Assembly: GCF_024204665.1 (NCBI RefSeq)
Contig: NZ_CP100355.1
Coordinates: 3,019,451 to 3,083,450 of the forward strand
Source: Natronosalvus rutilus
Lineage (GTDB): Archaea; Halobacteriota; Halobacteria; Halobacteriales; Natrialbaceae
DNA: 64,000 bases
Reading direction: 5' to 3'
In this document: positions 46,430 through 56,509 of the stretch, piece after piece
How the letters are laid out: every line of letters begins with the position of its first letter
How positions within the stretch are numbered: position 1 is the first letter of the stretch
Made by a program: the position numbers and the translations under genes
Notes under the pieces: model-generated
What the model saw: only the letters and a program-made list of their open reading frames with translations
Told to the model about the DNA's origin: nothing
Database searches by the model: none

Positions 46430-47577
46430 TCTCGCTCACCGTCCGCTCCGTCGTGTCTCGAAACGATTTGCTCGTAGGCCGCTCGCGCACGACGGACGCG
46501 AGCGTCGGTTGCCGGATAGTTTCCGTACCGAACCTCTCGAAATGTCTCGGTGAGCGTCGAGACGGCCGACTCCGGAAAGCCCGCGTCGACCGCGGCACTC
46601 GCGTACTCGCCCGGTGTCTTCGACCGGTCTCGTCTCCGTGAGACGAGTCCGGTCAGTGCGGCCCAGGCTTCCTCGACCGTCTGGGGTCCAGGATCGTCTT
46701 CGGTCTCGGCGTCGTCGGTCGTTCGGCGATCGTCGTCTTGAGTGGCCGTCGACTGCGACCAGGAACCGGCCGCTCGACGAGACAGGCTGAAGCCGTCGAA
46801 GAGCGACGCGATGCCTCCGGAGAGGGAGAACGAGCGGGAACGTCTCCCGAGCGAACCCAGCGCACCAGCGATTCCCGTCGGAAGCGAGACGACCGCGGAC
46901 CCGAGTCCGCGGCCCAGGCCGCGACCGGCCATTCCGAGTGTCGACTCGACGGCGCGTCCGGTTCGAACGAAGCCGTCGACGATGGCCGGCGTCACGCGCG
47001 TAACTCCGATCGTCGCCGCCATCGTCACCTGCGGGATCCGCTTGAGACGAAACCGCAGGCGAGGGAGGAATCCGTCCGGAAGGGACACGTCGGCGTCTAC
47101 GTTTCCAGGGGCCCGATCAGGGTGTGTTCCTCGCCAGAGCAGGACTATCGGGCCGACGACGATCAGGCTGGCGAGCGCGACGACAGCGGCTCGAAGGAGG
47201 TCGGCGCCACCGCTCGAGGCGCCGTCTTCGGGTTCGGCCCCATCTGCGGTCGATTCGTTTTCGTCGTCCGAATCGTTCGGTTCCCCGTCCGAGTCGTCGG
47301 GTTCGGCGCCGTCGTCCGAGTCGTCCGAGTCGTCCGGATGGTCACTCGAGTCGGAGCCGTCGCTTTCGTTACCATCCGGGTCCATCGCGTCTCCGTCCGG
47401 GTCGCTCAAACCGTCCCCGCCGTCCGTCTGGGGTCCGGACTCGCGGTAGTGGTCGTCGCTCACGGCGTCCTGGTCGGGGTAGTCGCCGTAGCCGGCCGCG
47501 GGGAGGAACGCGGCGGCGGCGAGGACTGCGAGGACACAACAGGCGACGAGGGCGGCGTTGTGGCGGTCGTATCCCAC
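46426..47577 (-). CDS. DUF4129 domain protein, first gene of the DUF58 operon
   Basis: 383 aa. One membrane helix near the N terminus is followed by a long Asp/Ser/Glu linker. A second helix lies near residue 135 (LLRAAVVALASLIVVGPIVLLW). The C-terminal DUF4129 domain has KTPGEYASAAVDAGFPESAV and a Tyr/Arg pair in VRYGNYPATDARV. I chose the GTG at 47577, because an ACATTTTTACG AT-rich element lies about 27 bp upstream and fits a leaderless mRNA. The ATG at 47643 is an alternative. It heads a four-gene unit with overlaps throughout. Confidence 0.82.
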   Translation of the reverse strand: MGYDRHNAALVACCVLAVLAAAAFLPAAGYGDYPDQDAVSDDHYRESGPQTDGGDGLSDPDGDAMDPDGNESDGSDSSDHPDDSDDSDDGAEPDDSDGEPNDSDDENESTADGAEPEDGASSGGADLLRAAVVALASLIVVGPIVLLWRGTHPDRAPGNVDADVSLPDGFLPRLRFRLKRIPQVTMAATIGVTRVTPAIVDGFVRTGRAVESTLGMAGRGLGRGLGSAVVSLPTGIAGALGSLGRRSRSFSLSGGIASLFDGFSLSRRAAGSWSQSTATQDDDRRTTDDAETEDDPGPQTVEEAWAALTGLVSRRRDRSKTPGEYASAAVDAGFPESAVSTLTETFREVRYGNYPATDARVRRARAAYEQIVSRHDGADGERE

Positions 47578-47704
47578 ACTATCGCTTCGTGCGTGGCCGA
47601 TTCGTAAAAATGTTACCACTGTGACCAGTAGTCGACCGGACATGTGGAAGATCACGACGTCTGCGCGACGAAACTATTTTCGACCGACAGGTTCAACCGG
47701 GTGC

Positions 47705-48790
47705 ATGGTCTCTCGCGACCTCCTCGGACGCATGGCGACGACGCTCGGCGCCATCGTCCTCGCCAACTTGGTGCTCGCCCTCGCTTTCGTCACGCTGCTC
47801 GAGCCCTGGCTCGCCCCCGTCTTCGACGGCGTCGGACTCTCTCGCGGCGTCGCGTTCGCTCTCGCGACCGCCCTCTGTCTAGGATGTATGCTCGCCGTCC
47901 AGTTGCGGTACGCCCGCCTGGAACTCCTCGCCGAAGCCGACGCCGCTGTGCTCGCGCCCGAGGAGCGGCCGGAACTGACCGATCAGGTCACGCGACTCGC
48001 TGCCCAACTGGACGTCGCGGTGCCAACGGTCGCCGTTGCCGACACCCAGGTGGCCAACAGCTTCGCCGTCGGCGGCGTTCGTTCGGGCACGATCGTGGTT
48101 AGCGAGGGGCTCCTCGGGACGCTCGAGCCCGCGGAACTCGACGCCGTCCTCGCCCACGAACTCGCGCACCTGAAGAACCACGACGCGGCGGTGATGACCC
48201 TCGCTTCGTTCCTCCCGGCGCTGATCGCCGACGAACACGTCGTCTTCGGGGATCACATGCCGCGGTGGGCCCGACCGTACGTCTACGGTGGACTCTTGTT
48301 CGTCGCGGCACTCCTCGGGTCGTCGTTCATCGACGCGCCCGTGTTCACCCCGAGCGGACTCCTGCAACTCGCCGTGGCTCTGGCCGTCACCGTCGTCGTC
48401 GGCGGGATCGTTCTCGGCGTCGTCGCGACTGCCGTCGTCTTCCTCAGCCGCAGCCTTTCGCGCCAGCGGGAGTTCGTCGCCGACCGTGCCGGGGCCCTCG
48501 CCACCGGCGATCCGGCAACGCTCGCGGGCGTCCTCGAGCGACTCGACGGACACCCGAGCGCCCCCGTCGAAGACGCGCGAATCGAGGCGGAGGCGACGTC
48601 CGGCGAGCACTACCGCGGTCTCGAGGGGATGTGCTTGCTTCCGCACGGTTTCGATCGGTCAGGGGAAGGAGCGACGGACGGTAGCGGCCCGCTCGAGGTG
48701 GACACCTATGCCCATCCCTCGACGACCGAGCGTATCGCACGGCTTCGAAAATTGGCTGCAGAACTGGAAAGCGAGCCGCGCGTGGGATGA
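47705..48790 (+). CDS. HtpX-like M48 metalloprotease
   Basis: 361 aa. Two N-terminal membrane helices (about residues 10-35 and 45-65) are followed by the zinc motif HELAHLKNHD (H151, E152, H155), with the third ligand in REFVADRAGAL. Two more helices lie between. This is the HtpX/Ste24 type, which breaks down misfolded membrane proteins. The start is the ATG at 47705 (MVSRDLLGRM); the frame upstream overlaps the promoter of the DUF58 operon. Confidence 0.92.
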   Translation: MVSRDLLGRMATTLGAIVLANLVLALAFVTLLEPWLAPVFDGVGLSRGVAFALATALCLGCMLAVQLRYARLELLAEADAAVLAPEERPELTDQVTRLAAQLDVAVPTVAVADTQVANSFAVGGVRSGTIVVSEGLLGTLEPAELDAVLAHELAHLKNHDAAVMTLASFLPALIADEHVVFGDHMPRWARPYVYGGLLFVAALLGSSFIDAPVFTPSGLLQLAVALAVTVVVGGIVLGVVATAVVFLSRSLSRQREFVADRAGALATGDPATLAGVLERLDGHPSAPVEDARIEAEATSGEHYRGLEGMCLLPHGFDRSGEGATDGSGPLEVDTYAHPSTTERIARLRKLAAELESEPRVG

Positions 48791-51418: not shown

Positions 51419-53605
51419 TCAGGTTTCCACGCCCAATACGGTGTTGTCGTCGGCCTCACCGAACGCGACCCAGTCGTCGTCCGTCTTGGCTGCGTTCGCC
51501 TCGCTCGGGCCAAAGGTGTACGTCCCCGTCTCCGCCGGCGCTTCCGCGAAGTAGGTGAACGTGGCCGTCTCGCCCGGGACCGCGGTTCCGAAGTAGACGT
51601 ACTGCACGTCGCCATCTTCCTCGACGCGCTCGACGTCGCCGTGTGCCTCGTCGACCGACCACTCGGCGAGGACGACGTCCCTCACCGTCGCTTCGTGTGA
51701 GACCGACTCGACAGCCACGTCCACGCGGTTGGTCTGGCCAGCGGTGAACGCCGACCCATCGTCCTCGCGAGCACCCGCCACCTCGAGCGTTTCGGGCGTG
51801 TCAGGGTCGACCAGTTCGACCTCGTTGTGCTTCGCGAAGTCGCCGGCCGCCGCTCGCCGAACGGCCGACGGTGCGTCGACGAAGCCGGTACCGGCGTTCC
51901 ACGGGGTGTAGGCGGTGTGGGCGTCGCGGGCCTGGGCTTCCACCGTGTAGATGACGTCGGCGGGCGACCAGTCGTGGCCGTTCTTGCGCGCGGCGTCGAT
52001 CACCAGGGCACAGATGCCAGCCGCGGCCGGGCAGGCCATGCTCGTCCCCGTCATCGGCGAGTAGTAGAGTTCGTCGTCCGGCTCGAGCGCGTCCAGCGCG
52101 TCCGTCGGGCCGACCGTACTCATCACGGCGTTGCCCGGGGTCGCGACGCCGGGTCGATAGAGGCCAACCGGTCGGTACCGATACGGTTCGCCGAGCTGTT
52201 CGAACGCCTCGAGGGCGATCTCGTAGGTGACTACGACGTTGGTCGCGGGTTCGACCTCGATCCAGTAGGTCTCGCCGCCCTCGACGTCCGTCGTCAGCGT
52301 CTGGTGCTGGTAGACCAGCTCCTCGCCGAGTTGGGCGACTTCCTCGCCGTCTTTCGAACCCTGGAGGACGGTCAGTGTGATCTGCTCGCCGTCTGGCGTC
52401 AGCGAGAGGTCGAGTTCGAGGACGTCCGCGTTGTTCGGCGCGACCCACTCGTAGTAGTCGCTGCCGGTACCTGTAGGGCCGACTTCGCCCGCCCACGACT
52501 CGGTGTCGACGACGTACTGTCCCCGGGTCATCGCGGCGTGGAACTTCTCGAGGTTTCGCAGGGCTTTTCGGCGGTCGTAGTTGGTCTCGCGGTCCTCGTC
52601 CGGCGTTCGTCCGCGCGAGGAGAAATCGGTGACGTGCTCGTCGTCGCGGGTGGCCGCCACGCCGAGCACGTGCGGCGCTTTGGCGAACCGCGAGAGGGTA
52701 TCCGGGTCGGGGCCGTCGTTGCCCGCCGCGAAGACGGGGACGATTCCACGCTGGAACGCCTCCCAGGACGCGACGTTGACGGGGTCGTTCGGGTTGTACC
52801 GCACGTCGCGAGCGACGCCGTAGGAGTTCGACACCACGTCGGGATCGAAGTCGTCGTCGGGGTCGTCCGCCCGGGCCAGCACGTGATCCCACGCGCCCAC
52901 GACGAACGGGAGGTAGACGGCCTCGTTGGTCGAGTAGACCGACACGCGGGCCCCGGGAGCCATCCCGCGGTATTGCCCGTCGCTCGCCGACCCATCACCG
53001 GCGACGATGCCGGCGCAGTGGGTGCCGTGCCCCAGGTCGTCGGTGTCCGCGCCGGCACCGAGGTCGATCCAGTCGGGATCAGGATCGCCCAGCGGATCGT
53101 CGACCCACTGCCAGTTCGACTCGAGTCGACCGTCGAAGTCGGGGTGCGGGCCGGAAAAGCCCGAGTCGATGACGACGGTATCGACCGACGAGCCGTCGTA
53201 GCCGAAATCAGACTGGACCACGTCAGCGCCCGTCGCCTCGCGAGAGTCGTCGTTGTAGAACTCGAGTTCTACGGCCTTGGTGACCCGCCGAACCGCGTCC
53301 CAGTCGGCGACCGTCGAGAGCTGATCGCCGGTCAGGGCGGTGTAGGCCATCGGGAGCACCTCGTACTCGACGAGGCCCGCCTGCAGGTCAAGGTCCGACA
53401 GGAGCCCGACCGATTCGGCGTCGTCGAAGACGACGATCACCTCCTGGAGCACGTCGCTCGCGGTGTCGAGCAGTCCGTCGAGCACCGACGTGTCCGTGTC
53501 GGCTGTCGCCGTTCCCGAAAACGGGAGCAACGACGCTGCGCCGGCGGCGCCGGCGGTCCTGAGTACTGTGCGTCGGTCGATGTGGTGTGACGTGTCCTCT
53601 GACAT
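51419..53605 (-). CDS. Tat-exported subtilisin-like serine protease (S8), copy A
   Basis: 728 aa. A Tat signal (DRRTVLRTAGAAGAASLLPF) ends near residue 36. The catalytic triad is D147 (VVIDSGFSGPHPDF), H193 (GHGTHCAG) and S522 (GTSMACPAAAG), with oxyanion N296. About 225 residues separate N296 and S522, far more than the roughly 65 in subtilisin. They hold a beta-rich insert (VLELDLSLTPDGEQITLTVL and YWIEVEPATNVVV). The last 110 residues form a module shared with the neighbouring copy. No propeptide inhibitor domain is obvious beyond residues 40-110. Likely secreted and salt-adapted. Confidence 0.9.
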   Translation of the reverse strand: MSEDTSHHIDRRTVLRTAGAAGAASLLPFSGTATADTDTSVLDGLLDTASDVLQEVIVVFDDAESVGLLSDLDLQAGLVEYEVLPMAYTALTGDQLSTVADWDAVRRVTKAVELEFYNDDSREATGADVVQSDFGYDGSSVDTVVIDSGFSGPHPDFDGRLESNWQWVDDPLGDPDPDWIDLGAGADTDDLGHGTHCAGIVAGDGSASDGQYRGMAPGARVSVYSTNEAVYLPFVVGAWDHVLARADDPDDDFDPDVVSNSYGVARDVRYNPNDPVNVASWEAFQRGIVPVFAAGNDGPDPDTLSRFAKAPHVLGVAATRDDEHVTDFSSRGRTPDEDRETNYDRRKALRNLEKFHAAMTRGQYVVDTESWAGEVGPTGTGSDYYEWVAPNNADVLELDLSLTPDGEQITLTVLQGSKDGEEVAQLGEELVYQHQTLTTDVEGGETYWIEVEPATNVVVTYEIALEAFEQLGEPYRYRPVGLYRPGVATPGNAVMSTVGPTDALDALEPDDELYYSPMTGTSMACPAAAGICALVIDAARKNGHDWSPADVIYTVEAQARDAHTAYTPWNAGTGFVDAPSAVRRAAAGDFAKHNEVELVDPDTPETLEVAGAREDDGSAFTAGQTNRVDVAVESVSHEATVRDVVLAEWSVDEAHGDVERVEEDGDVQYVYFGTAVPGETATFTYFAEAPAETGTYTFGPSEANAAKTDDDWVAFGEADDNTVLGVET

Positions 53606-53698
53606 CGTGGAAGTAGATTCGTATCGGTAGTGGTGTGCTTCGAGACTCGAGCCATCGTTCGGGCCGCGGACTCGAAGCTCGAGGCGGTGAACCGGGCT

Positions 53699-56509
53699 CT
53701 AGGTGCTCTGACCGACGACGACGTTCGAGTCGCTCGTTCCCGTAATCGCGACCCAGCCGTCGCCCGCGTCGACCTCGGCTGGGCCGAAGTCGTAGGTGTC
53801 GCTCAGCAGCAGTTCGTCGGGCGCCTCGACGAAGTACTCGACCGACGTCTCGGTGTCGGCGGCGGCCGTTCCGAAGTAGACGTATTGGACGCCTTCGCCC
53901 GCCTCGACGCGCTCGACGTCGTCGGAGTACTCGGTCAGGACGTCCCACTCGGCGGGAACGACGTCCCGGAGTTCAGCGTCCGCGCTCGGGTTCGCGGTCA
54001 GCTGGACGTGGTTGGTCTGCCCGCCCGTGAAGACGCTGGCGTCGTCCTCGCGGGTGCCGTCGACGAAGAAGCCGTCCTCGACGTCGACCGTGAGGTCGAG
54101 GTGGACCTGCACGTCGTCGCCGTTGACGCAGCCCGGCATGTTGACCAGTTTCGCGACGATGAACACCGTCTGCTCGCTCGCGTCGCGGCCGAACGAAACG
54201 GACGTCTCGGCCGATCCCTGGAGTCCCTGGGCCCGTCCGAGCACGTTCGGTTCGCCGTTGTCCGCCGGGTTCGCGGCGTCGTAGACGAACAGGTCGATGT
54301 GCGGGTCGCCCTTCGCCGCGCCCTTGTCGCCGCCCGAAAGGTGACTGATCTCGATGTTGGCGGTAACCGTACCCGGGCCGGCCTGCACGTACCCCGCCGC
54401 GGCGCGCTCGTCTTCAGGGACGTTCAGACCAACGACCTCGCTCGAGGTGCCCGACAGTTCGCGGGTAACGGCGTCGATGGCCGGGCCGGGGTTCACGCGG
54501 CCGTACCCCTCGAACGGGTCCCGCCCGCCGAAGTCGTACGTGGGTGCCTTTGCGCGGTGGTATGGCGCTGCGGTGAGCGCCGTCTCCGTCGCCGTGGCCA
54601 GCAGCACCTGCTTGAGGCGCATCACGTCGTCGAAGTCCGTCTCCGCGGGTTCGGGAAGTGCGATGCTCGAGGGCGCGTCCTCCTCCATCGCCTGGGCGAC
54701 TAGTCCGGCGGTACCGTTCGTATAGGGCGAAGCCATCGACGTGCCGGCCTTGCCGGTGTAACCCCGGATCGGCGGCTGTTCGTCCTCCGGCTGGTCCGCG
54801 ACGCCGGTGTCGGCCGCATTGGCCGTATCCGTCACGTACCCGCCCGGCGCGGTGGCGTCGGGCTTCATGTACGTGTCGTAGTCCTCCTCGTCGATGCCGC
54901 CGATGCCGCCGCTCGAGTACGCCGAAATGCCGTCGAGCGGGCCGGTCGCGACCACGGAGATGGCCTCGTCTGCAACGGCCGGTGAGCCGTTCCCGTTGAC
55001 CGGCGTCGCAGCGTTACCCGCCGCTGCGACCGTCAGTACGCCCGCGTCGGCGATCTCCTTGATTCGAGCTGGGATGCGGTCGAGCGTGCCCGCCGCCGCC
55101 CCCAGCGGCAGGCCGCCGACGTAGCCCCAGGACATGTTGACCGTGCGCATGTTGAACAGGTCGGCGAAGTCCGCGGCGTGCCGGCCCAGGTCCTCAGTCG
55201 GGCCCGAGAGGCCCTGCAGGCACACGAGACTCGCGTTCGGTGCGACACCGGAGTGGAAACCATCGTGTTCGCCGGTTCGATCGGCGGCGGTGGTGTCGGG
55301 ATCACAGAACGCTCCGGCGGCGACCGAGTCGACGTACGCAGCCGTCGCCAGTTCGCCTTCGGCCGTCCGGACGTAGACCGTGTAGGTTCCCGACTCCTCG
55401 GCCGGAGTTACGGCGGTCACGTTGTCCTGGACGCCCTCGTCGGTGTCGAGCGTGGTTCGCTCGAGCGTTTGTCCATCGGGCCCCTCAATCAGGACCTCGA
55501 TCAGTTCGCCGAACGCGGAACCGAAGACCCCCGTGCCGGCGTCGGCCTCGACCTCGTAGGCGAGGTAGTTGCCGGTCACCGCCGAGAGCGCGGTGCGAGG
55601 TTCGTCGGTCTGGACGGTATCCGGGTCGATTGCACTCGCCCGTCCGCTCCCGCCCATGATAGACGCGCAGTGAGTCCCGTGGCCGTTCTCGTCGCGCGGT
55701 CGCTCGTAAAAGCCGTAGTTCGACCCGGCGTCGTACCAGCCCACCGTCTTGGGGGTGTCGGCCGTCGGCGTCCCGTCGGTTCCCTCGAAGACGACGCTCG
55801 AGTCGTAGGTCGTTCGCTCGCCCTCGTAGGCGAAGTACGTGCCCGAAATCTCGTACTCCGAGAGCGTGTTGATGTACGCCTCGGCGACGAAACGGTATCG
55901 CTGGTCGGGCGTGACCGAGGTTCGAATCGTCTCGGGCATGCTGCCGGAGGCCGCTCGCGCGGCGGTCTCCCACTGGCCATCGACGTACTCGTCGATCCGG
56001 AACTCGAGATCGTTGGTGTTCTCGACGAACGGCGACCACGAGAGCGAGGCGTCCAGTTCTTCGACGCCGCTGGGTGTCGTGAACTCGTGGTAGGCCTCCT
56101 CGCCGGAGACGAACGTCCCAGGCCCCATCGTCCCCGAGAAGGACTCGGTGTCGCCGGTCTCGACGCGCTCGAGGTCGTTTTCGTCTGGTTTCGTGAGTTT
56201 TACCTGACCGTCCTCGATGAACGCCTGGACCCCGTTCCACGGCCCGAGGTCCGGATGCCGCGAGTCCAGGCCGGAATCGGTCAGTGCGATCGTCCGGTCG
56301 GTTCGACCGCGATATCCTCTATCCCAGGCGTGACGCGCCTCGAGCGCCCGCCAGTTGAGAAATCGTGGATCGATGTCGTCGGTCGCCCCAACGGTGGTCG
56401 TACTCGCCCCACCGGCCAGCGCCGCCCCCACGGCGACCCCGGTCGCTTTGACGAATGTTCGACGTGAGAACCCGGTTCCCCTCTGCTGATCTTCGTTACT
56501 CCCTGACAT
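53699..56509 (-). CDS. Tat-exported subtilisin-like serine protease (S8), copy B
   Basis: 936 aa. The Tat signal is SRRTFVKATGVAVGAALAGG. The triad is D78 (ALTDSGLDSRHPD), H277 (GHGTHCASIMGG) and S591 (GTSMASPYTNGTAG), with oxyanion N499. D and H are 199 residues apart and H and N 222 apart, so two extra domains are inserted there, at places different from copy A. No inhibitor propeptide is seen: the mature-like region begins at once (IDPRFLNWRALEARHAWD). Beyond the catalytic core lies a beta-rich domain and the shared C-terminal module. The gene is 93 bp upstream of copy A and may be co-transcribed with it. Confidence 0.88.
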   Translation of the reverse strand: MSGSNEDQQRGTGFSRRTFVKATGVAVGAALAGGASTTTVGATDDIDPRFLNWRALEARHAWDRGYRGRTDRTIALTDSGLDSRHPDLGPWNGVQAFIEDGQVKLTKPDENDLERVETGDTESFSGTMGPGTFVSGEEAYHEFTTPSGVEELDASLSWSPFVENTNDLEFRIDEYVDGQWETAARAASGSMPETIRTSVTPDQRYRFVAEAYINTLSEYEISGTYFAYEGERTTYDSSVVFEGTDGTPTADTPKTVGWYDAGSNYGFYERPRDENGHGTHCASIMGGSGRASAIDPDTVQTDEPRTALSAVTGNYLAYEVEADAGTGVFGSAFGELIEVLIEGPDGQTLERTTLDTDEGVQDNVTAVTPAEESGTYTVYVRTAEGELATAAYVDSVAAGAFCDPDTTAADRTGEHDGFHSGVAPNASLVCLQGLSGPTEDLGRHAADFADLFNMRTVNMSWGYVGGLPLGAAAGTLDRIPARIKEIADAGVLTVAAAGNAATPVNGNGSPAVADEAISVVATGPLDGISAYSSGGIGGIDEEDYDTYMKPDATAPGGYVTDTANAADTGVADQPEDEQPPIRGYTGKAGTSMASPYTNGTAGLVAQAMEEDAPSSIALPEPAETDFDDVMRLKQVLLATATETALTAAPYHRAKAPTYDFGGRDPFEGYGRVNPGPAIDAVTRELSGTSSEVVGLNVPEDERAAAGYVQAGPGTVTANIEISHLSGGDKGAAKGDPHIDLFVYDAANPADNGEPNVLGRAQGLQGSAETSVSFGRDASEQTVFIVAKLVNMPGCVNGDDVQVHLDLTVDVEDGFFVDGTREDDASVFTGGQTNHVQLTANPSADAELRDVVPAEWDVLTEYSDDVERVEAGEGVQYVYFGTAAADTETSVEYFVEAPDELLLSDTYDFGPAEVDAGDGWVAITGTSDSNVVVGQST

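Follow-up and report, generated by a model that had tools for sequence, protein, structure and literature searches.

A predicted PPC-like jelly-roll cassette in different catalytic loops of two adjacent haloarchaeal subtilases

The analysed stretch of Natronosalvus rutilus DNA (NZ_CP100355.1, positions 3,019,451 to 3,083,450; 64,000 nucleotides, hereafter the window) belongs to a genome of 4.3 Mb (G000) and contains two adjacent minus-strand subtilase genes with Tat-like signals, in the open reading frames where the original prediction had placed them. Gene B (53699..56509, minus strand, 936 aa) has inserts in the D-H and H-N intervals of its catalytic residues, and gene A (51419..53605, minus strand, 728 aa) has one in the N-S interval. 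On the minus strand B comes first, followed by a 93-bp gap (53606..53698, from the stop of B to the start of A) and then by A, and the two genes are likely co-transcribed. Nothing stands out among the flanking genes, which encode a GFO/IDH/MocA oxidoreductase, a PLP enzyme of Cys/Met metabolism, a PHP protein, and an asparagine-synthase-like protein. A gene for an M48 peptidase is located a little further away (47558-48790, a few genes off); no link with A or B was seen.

In A, all segments being on the minus strand, residues 1-36 (53498..53605) form a Tat signal with the motif RRTVL, which scores slightly under the Pfam TAT_signal cut-off (21.9 vs 22.7 bits). The next segment (residues 37-124; 53234..53497) has no Pfam call, is of prodomain size and probably has that role. 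Catalytic part 1 (residues 125-361; 52523..53233) holds D147, H193, and N296, and its end (~338-361) is partly common to insert-free relatives. It is followed by the putative PPC-like beta-jelly-roll cassette (residues 362-477; 52175..52522), by catalytic part 2 with S522 (residues 478-600; 51806..52174), and by a C-terminal domain (residues 609-728; 51422..51781) common to B.

In B, also read on the minus strand, a Tat-like signal (SRRTFVK, residues 1-43; 56381..56509) was recognised by eye. Catalytic part 1 with D78 (residues 46-92; 56234..56374) is separated from part 2 with H277 (residues 254-292; 55634..55750) by insert 1, a stretch of ~93-253 in which the PPC-like cassette proper, of the same family as that of A, occupies ~112-238 (55796..56176). 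Insert 2 (residues 293-415; 55265..55633) has nine predicted beta strands and precedes catalytic part 3 with N499 and S591 (residues 416-682; 54464..55264). A post-catalytic beta domain (residues 683-811; 54077..54463) and the C-terminal domain common to A (residues 816-936; 53702..54064) complete the protein.

The residues D147/H193/N296/S522 of A and D78/H277/N499/S591 of B sit within subtilase motifs. They show no variation in the alignments, which comprise 49 of the 51 A-type and 51 of the 64 B-type frames (window included, broken or short frames having been excluded beforehand); both copies do keep the D-H-N-S set, as had been claimed. Pfam Peptidase_S8 matches two stretches in each protein (E 2.4e-31 in A and 1.1e-27 in B). 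Both belong to peptidase family S8 by the order of D, H, N, and S and by the subtilisin fold, the latter modelled for B. In detail, the AlphaFold model of B (mean pLDDT 85.9, pTM 0.86) matches subtilisins with Z ~31 and an rmsd of 2.0 Å over ~260 residues spread across positions 46-679, which in the model span subtilisins such as Savinase from the first to the last residue. Because residue 46 aligns with subtilisin residue 1, B would, according to the model, leave no room for a prodomain; in A, ~88 residues lie between signal and core. The folding of B, or its inactivity before export, could be assisted by A with its prodomain-sized segment or by insert 2 of B itself.

Tk-SP of Thermococcus is the best PDB sequence match for both catalytic cores. 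When both inserts are removed from B, the best match rises from 59.8 to 106.8 bits and three pieces become one continuous alignment; two PDB sequences are matched by the intact protein (limit E 1e-3) and 31 by the shortened one (limit E 1e-6). Removal of the A insert gives a small gain only (87.2 to 88.3 bits). Projected on Tk-SP, insert 1 of B falls between chain positions 45 and 48 and insert 2 between 83 and 84 (PDB 9ues), and the A insert falls between 321 and 324 (PDB 3afg). On subtilisin numbering, we take the B inserts to follow residue 42 and to fall within 75-83, in the surroundings of the strong calcium site; the A insert presumably lies just ahead of residue 195, by the weak calcium site.

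The intervals named in the original prediction are thus borne out: the A insert (~362-477) lies between N296 and S522, and the B inserts (~93-253 and 293-415) lie between D78 and H277 and between H277 and N499, respectively. At the A site, 109-130 residues are found in 24 of the 43 A-family rows and 6-8 residues in the other 19, in an alignment without the five frames that are partial or split (two each of L071 and L073, and one of L072). The D-H site of B holds 122-156 residues in 17 of 26 B-family rows and 6-17 residues in nine; this alignment omits two cut frames (L068 and L073), and L039 was aligned with B and left off the tree. Since the short-loop relatives have no cassette at the same sites, the A insert and insert 1 of B are true insertions. 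In the aligned rows (24 A and 17 B), the cassette keeps to one site per host.

When 64 distinct B-type frames with a length of 800 residues or more are considered, the profile recognises the cassette in 38 and not in 26, a count in which absence is overstated because L085, L155, L162, L163, and L170 have a long D-H segment that the profile does not find; some of the 26 carry another or a much-changed D-H stretch. L085 is nevertheless a carrier in the B tree, because there "with insert" was scored by length. A-type proteins with and without the insert occur near each other in several genomes (e.g., L068, L074, and L075).

The A cassette and insert 1 of B belong to one family, a relationship that had been overlooked. 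Profiles built from 24 A inserts and 17 B inserts match each other over 106 columns (hhalign probability 99.4, E 8e-22), and only E-values of 0.02-0.19, that is, no match, were obtained by hhalign for either cassette against insert 2 of B and the post-catalytic B domain, or for the A cassette against the C-terminal domain. Therefore, one cassette has been used twice, rather than two unrelated domains. The two window cassettes are 24% identical and stand apart in the cassette tree; recent copying between A and B in the window genome is accordingly not supported.

The A cassette model (pLDDT 91.3) has eight strands, as does insert 1 in the model of B, and together with the fold matches these models uphold the claim of beta-rich domains placed in different loops. 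In the VIA comparison, the A cassette is matched best by residues 417-517 of Tk-SP, which form its C-terminal jelly roll, with Z 13.1 and an rmsd of 2.3 Å over 101 residues. Other matches are a GOLD domain (Z 11.8), the collagen-binding domains of ColH (Z 10.6) and ColG (Z 10.3), stretch 659-793 of tripeptidyl peptidase II (Z 10.6), the PPC domain of a Bacillus collagenase (5sv5, Z 10.5), and KP-43 (Z 9.6). The fold is very common, with Z of at least 5 in 759 of the 999 chains compared with the A cassette. Foldseek, ranked by E-value, places a bacterial mitogen first (5.2e-5, TM 0.55) and Tk-SP just behind (7.5e-5, TM 0.69). Among PDB sequences, the cassette profile gets no further than E 0.009, for Tk-SP. 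Like B, tripeptidyl peptidase II has a long insert between its catalytic D and H, on which the open-access literature yielded no statement.

Of the PPC, PA, and CUB-like folds proposed for comparison, PPC proved to be the best, both by profile and by the match of the model to PPC and Tk-SP jelly rolls. Against seven independent PPC stretches found with PF04151, the cassette profile reached 88.6% and E 2.6e-6 in hhalign; this set omits L193, L195, and L137, which were read in the wrong frame, and L194, a near copy of L191. A larger set of 14 stretches gave 96.5% and E 7e-10 but is biased, because half of its stretches were taken from L136, L138, and L139, proteins detected by means of the cassette profile. 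Taken alone, the A or the B cassette matches PPC at E 6e-5 or at 3e-6 to 3e-8, depending on the PPC set.

Single cassettes are at or below the Pfam detection limit. Weak matches to PPC (best E 0.0056) and to fn3 (best E 0.0015) each occur in one of 24 A and two of 17 B members, and DUF3000 is called in seven of the 24 A members (best E 0.031). The window cassettes have no Pfam match at E 1 and stay under the PF04151 cut-off, and a PF04151 search of the window genome (E 1e-3) found two places only, both elsewhere. For the PA domain, there is no Pfam match in A or B and none among the fold matches listed for the cassette. By its profile similarity and its modelled beta-jelly-roll fold, the cassette is classed as PPC-like, a domain type usually appended behind the catalytic domain of secreted peptidases. 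A tryptophan is conserved in all 17 B cassettes, together with acidic residues in nearly all; in the alignment, this tryptophan is not kept in A-type cassettes.

The profile of insert 2 of B finds its domain in all but two of the 64 B-type frames (62), and these two (L185 and L186) have a long changed stretch there. The site of insert 2 is the loop between the catalytic-His helix and GVAP. Profile comparison does not support it as a further copy of the cassette and gives only a hint of PPC (28-31%, E 5e-4 to 6e-4). For the post-catalytic B domain, an assignment to PPC is not supported (5-11%), and a search of PDB sequences found no match.

A second feature absent from the original prediction is the C-terminal domain, in which A and B are 50% identical. 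This domain of ~120 residues is common to haloarchaeal S8, M14, and S15 peptidases and to LVIVD-type proteins (e.g., L104:7924-10125 and L068:9424-14927), and is found on nearly all of the B and M14 frames as well as on many of the A and LVIVD-type ones. It has no Pfam match in A or B, no PDB sequence match better than E 0.68, and not a single cysteine in either protein. Its profile finds three places in the window genome, namely A, B, and an S15 peptidase at 394.9 kb, and none at the nearest M14 gene of that genome (1.73 Mb). It may serve as a common surface or sorting tag.

A search of 293 genomes of the order, with 15 candidates scored per genome, found the cassette at E 1e-6 or better in 27 genomes and 49 places. 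Sorted by host type in this analysis, these are 28 A-type proteins, 17 B-type proteins, and four M14 carboxypeptidases, one of the last being a split frame. In the M14 proteins, the cassette sits behind the catalytic domain; three of 13 M14 frames have it and ten do not, and the split frame L069 and L203 are two more carriers. In the phylum sample of 392 genomes, only four weak matches were found outside the order (E 2e-7 to 3e-4), and two of these, the Pfam-scanned L136 and L139, hold PPC domains.

In the cassette tree, A cassettes form one group (88/91) and M14 cassettes stand beside a subgroup of B (95/83); L085 and L094 are long branches of unsure placement. The host tree of B rejects a single clade of carriers (p 6e-58, 26 rows), and still does so without the unsure rows L083, L085, and L094 (p 1e-5). 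In the host tree of A, a single carrier clade is weakly rejected (p 0.022). One gain per family followed by simple descent is therefore rejected for B and, weakly, for A, and at least in B there must have been repeated loss, gain, or exchange of the cassette at a single site; the host trees do not distinguish gain from loss. The independent gain proposed originally stands insofar as two different sites have been invaded, but not as two separate domains, since the A insert and insert 1 of B are one family, and insert 2 of B, of another family, is nearly constant.

Three genomes of the same genus were compared. Two of them (G094 and G100) have insert-free A and B, and one (G237) has the type of the window. 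Apart from G237, window B is nearest to frames of another family (f17), and for window A the nearest is G282, a member of its own family, followed by f17. Replacement of A and B by transfer is possible.

The B loci from named records (n = 46) are from Haladaptatus, Natronomonas, Halorarius, Natronococcus, Halegenticoccus, Halomarina, and others. At least 15 of them contain an A-type gene, at least seven an M14 gene, and at least eight an LVIVD-type gene, counts that are lower bounds because contig ends cut some loci. In all 15 loci with both, the nearest A-B pair is on one strand. A and B are members of an exported-peptidase cluster of variable composition.

A jelly roll inside a subtilase is already known from CspB, a Clostridium spore-germination protease, in which, according to the available part of its report, ~130 residues interrupt the subtilase domain (PMC3567191). 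CspB without this jelly roll is easily digested and matures less efficiently, the heat stability of Tk-SP depends on its own jelly roll, and the authors liken that of CspB to the kexin P-domain (PMC3567191, same part). The CspB jelly roll and the A/B cassette both resemble the C-terminal jelly roll of Tk-SP. In CspB, the jelly-roll loop 411-415 lies between Asn287, a P1 contact, and Ser494 (PMC3567191, available part), so that the likeness to A is at the level of the interval only, and the B inserts are in other intervals. CspB also keeps its prodomain bound, whereas A and B carry export signals; in contrast to the CspB jelly roll, the cassette is dispensed with by some relatives and also occurs in a metallo-carboxypeptidase type. 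The NCBIfam Csp models score far under their cut-offs in A (26.6 bits vs 1250 for CspBA and 11.2 vs 675 for CspC) and do not match B, and no NCBIfam family is above its cut-off in either protein.

Other known systems place comparable domains elsewhere or use different ones. In Tk-SP (PDB 3afg and 9ues), the jelly roll is C-terminal and the core uninterrupted, in contrast to the interrupted cores of A and B, and PPC domains (PF04151), similar in profile and fold, stand behind the catalytic domain and not inside it. The halolysin SptA is, like A and B, a secreted haloarchaeal subtilase with a jelly-roll-like accessory domain, but in the accessible portion of its report this domain extends the C-terminus and carries two conserved cysteines, and no core insert is described (PMC3158780). 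The SptA tail contributes to stability and to the binding of protein substrates at high salt (PMC3158780, same portion). The P57 and C5a peptidases have an insert, which is a PA domain, a fold that does not figure among the matches listed for the cassette; an inserted PA domain binds collagen (PMC5177683, available part). A study of protease-dependent antagonism, as far as its text was available, concerns the halolysin HlyR4 and has no bearing on inserts (PMC12893001). In the accessible open-access literature, most subscription papers being outside its coverage, neither a jelly roll inside a haloarchaeal subtilase core nor a single cassette in two loops of the subtilase fold is described. The unusual part is the occurrence of one cassette in two loops of one fold and in another peptidase class.

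The computations presented here establish where the inserts lie, that the cassettes have a common origin and a PPC/Tk-SP-like fold, which relatives have or lack them, and that there is a cluster. The explanation that we favour, by a modest margin over even chances, is that the cassette acts as a stabilising clamp and folding aid in brine. A PPC-like family would have been built into the N-S loop of A-type and the D-H loop of B-type proteins, and behind the catalytic domain of an M14 carboxypeptidase type that occurs in related clusters. Like the internal jelly roll of CspB, the cassette would pack against the core of the protease, aid folding and maturation around Tat export, and keep the enzyme rigid in brine, substituting for loop stabilisation. 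In the prodomain-less B, the nearly constant insert 2 after the catalytic His could serve the same end, and any help of the cassette in holding substrates would be secondary. Because many relatives do without it, the cassette is dispensable for folding and activity in general, and on M14 proteins it cannot be a subtilase clamp.

That last point counts for an alternative which we regard as a real though lesser possibility: the cassette may chiefly be a substrate-holding module that, depending on the loop in which it is placed, would present polymers to the cleft from another side, giving A and B different target proteins. The likeness to the ColH and ColG collagen-binding domains agrees with this, as do the substrate binding by the SptA tail at high salt (PMC3158780, accessible portion) and the collagen binding by an inserted PA domain (PMC5177683, available part), and the tryptophan and acidic residues of the B cassettes could form a binding surface. 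On the other side, that tryptophan is not a feature of A-type cassettes, similarity of fold shows no function, and, the window cassettes sharing so little identity, no ligand surface common to A and B is evident. For the substrate capture at the cell surface suggested originally, the precedent studied best, CspB, speaks rather for stabilisation and autoprocessing.

More speculatively, and less probably still, one PPC-type cassette may have been passed around the haloarchaeal cluster of exported peptidases as a common handling module, inserted at any place that the host fold accepts (the N-S loop, the D-H loop, or the position after an M14 domain), either as a brine clamp replacing the calcium-site loops of subtilisin or as a shared docking surface. 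In the docking reading, the co-secreted proteases would use it to act on the same particles.

It is improbable that the cassette is a tolerated decoration, in the sense of jelly rolls that enter surface loops, get lost, and do little. The patchy presence, the rejection of a single carrier clade in B (weakly in A), and the absence from two of the three same-genus genomes searched would fit such a process, but only three host types are found in 49 places, the aligned rows show one site per host, and the cassette has persisted long at low identity without decay. Less credible still is the view that the A and B inserts are unrelated jelly rolls with merely a common fold: widespread as that fold is, this view is rejected by the profile match of A and B, which the other beta domains of these proteins do not share, and each cassette matches PPC far more weakly than the two match each other. 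Least of all can the inserts be taken for ordinary parts of a known halolysin subgroup, the outcome that would have undone the original prediction: A and B are haloarchaeal subtilases with export signals, and a figure legend in the accessible portion of PMC3158780 cites one halolysin with 149 inserted residues, but the cysteine pair of the halolysin C-terminal extension is missing from their tails, NCBIfam places them in no family, and the open literature covered has no such core insertion.

Insertions into enzyme cores are hard to study, since the insert-free version is usually gone. Here, two neighbouring genes have the same domain at different sites of a single fold, and for both there are natural counterparts that carry it and others that do not, in some cases within one genome. 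Its role in stability, maturation, or substrate binding, and the effect of the site, are therefore directly testable in brine enzymes, and the relatives of A and B provide a natural experiment on the effects of built-in domains on enzymes. A known type of appendage is also seen to be hidden inside proteins that databases label simply as S8 peptidases.

Two minor observations concern the relatives. Broken or split A-type genes, with two in-frame stops or in two frames, stand beside longer paralogues in L071 (G190:C1:139321-141510) and L073, and can be read as signs of turnover in the cluster. In a B-type clade (L085, L088, L084, L089, L095, and L090), an extra stretch of, very roughly, 70-100 residues lies between Asn and Ser and constitutes another interruption site of the subtilase fold.
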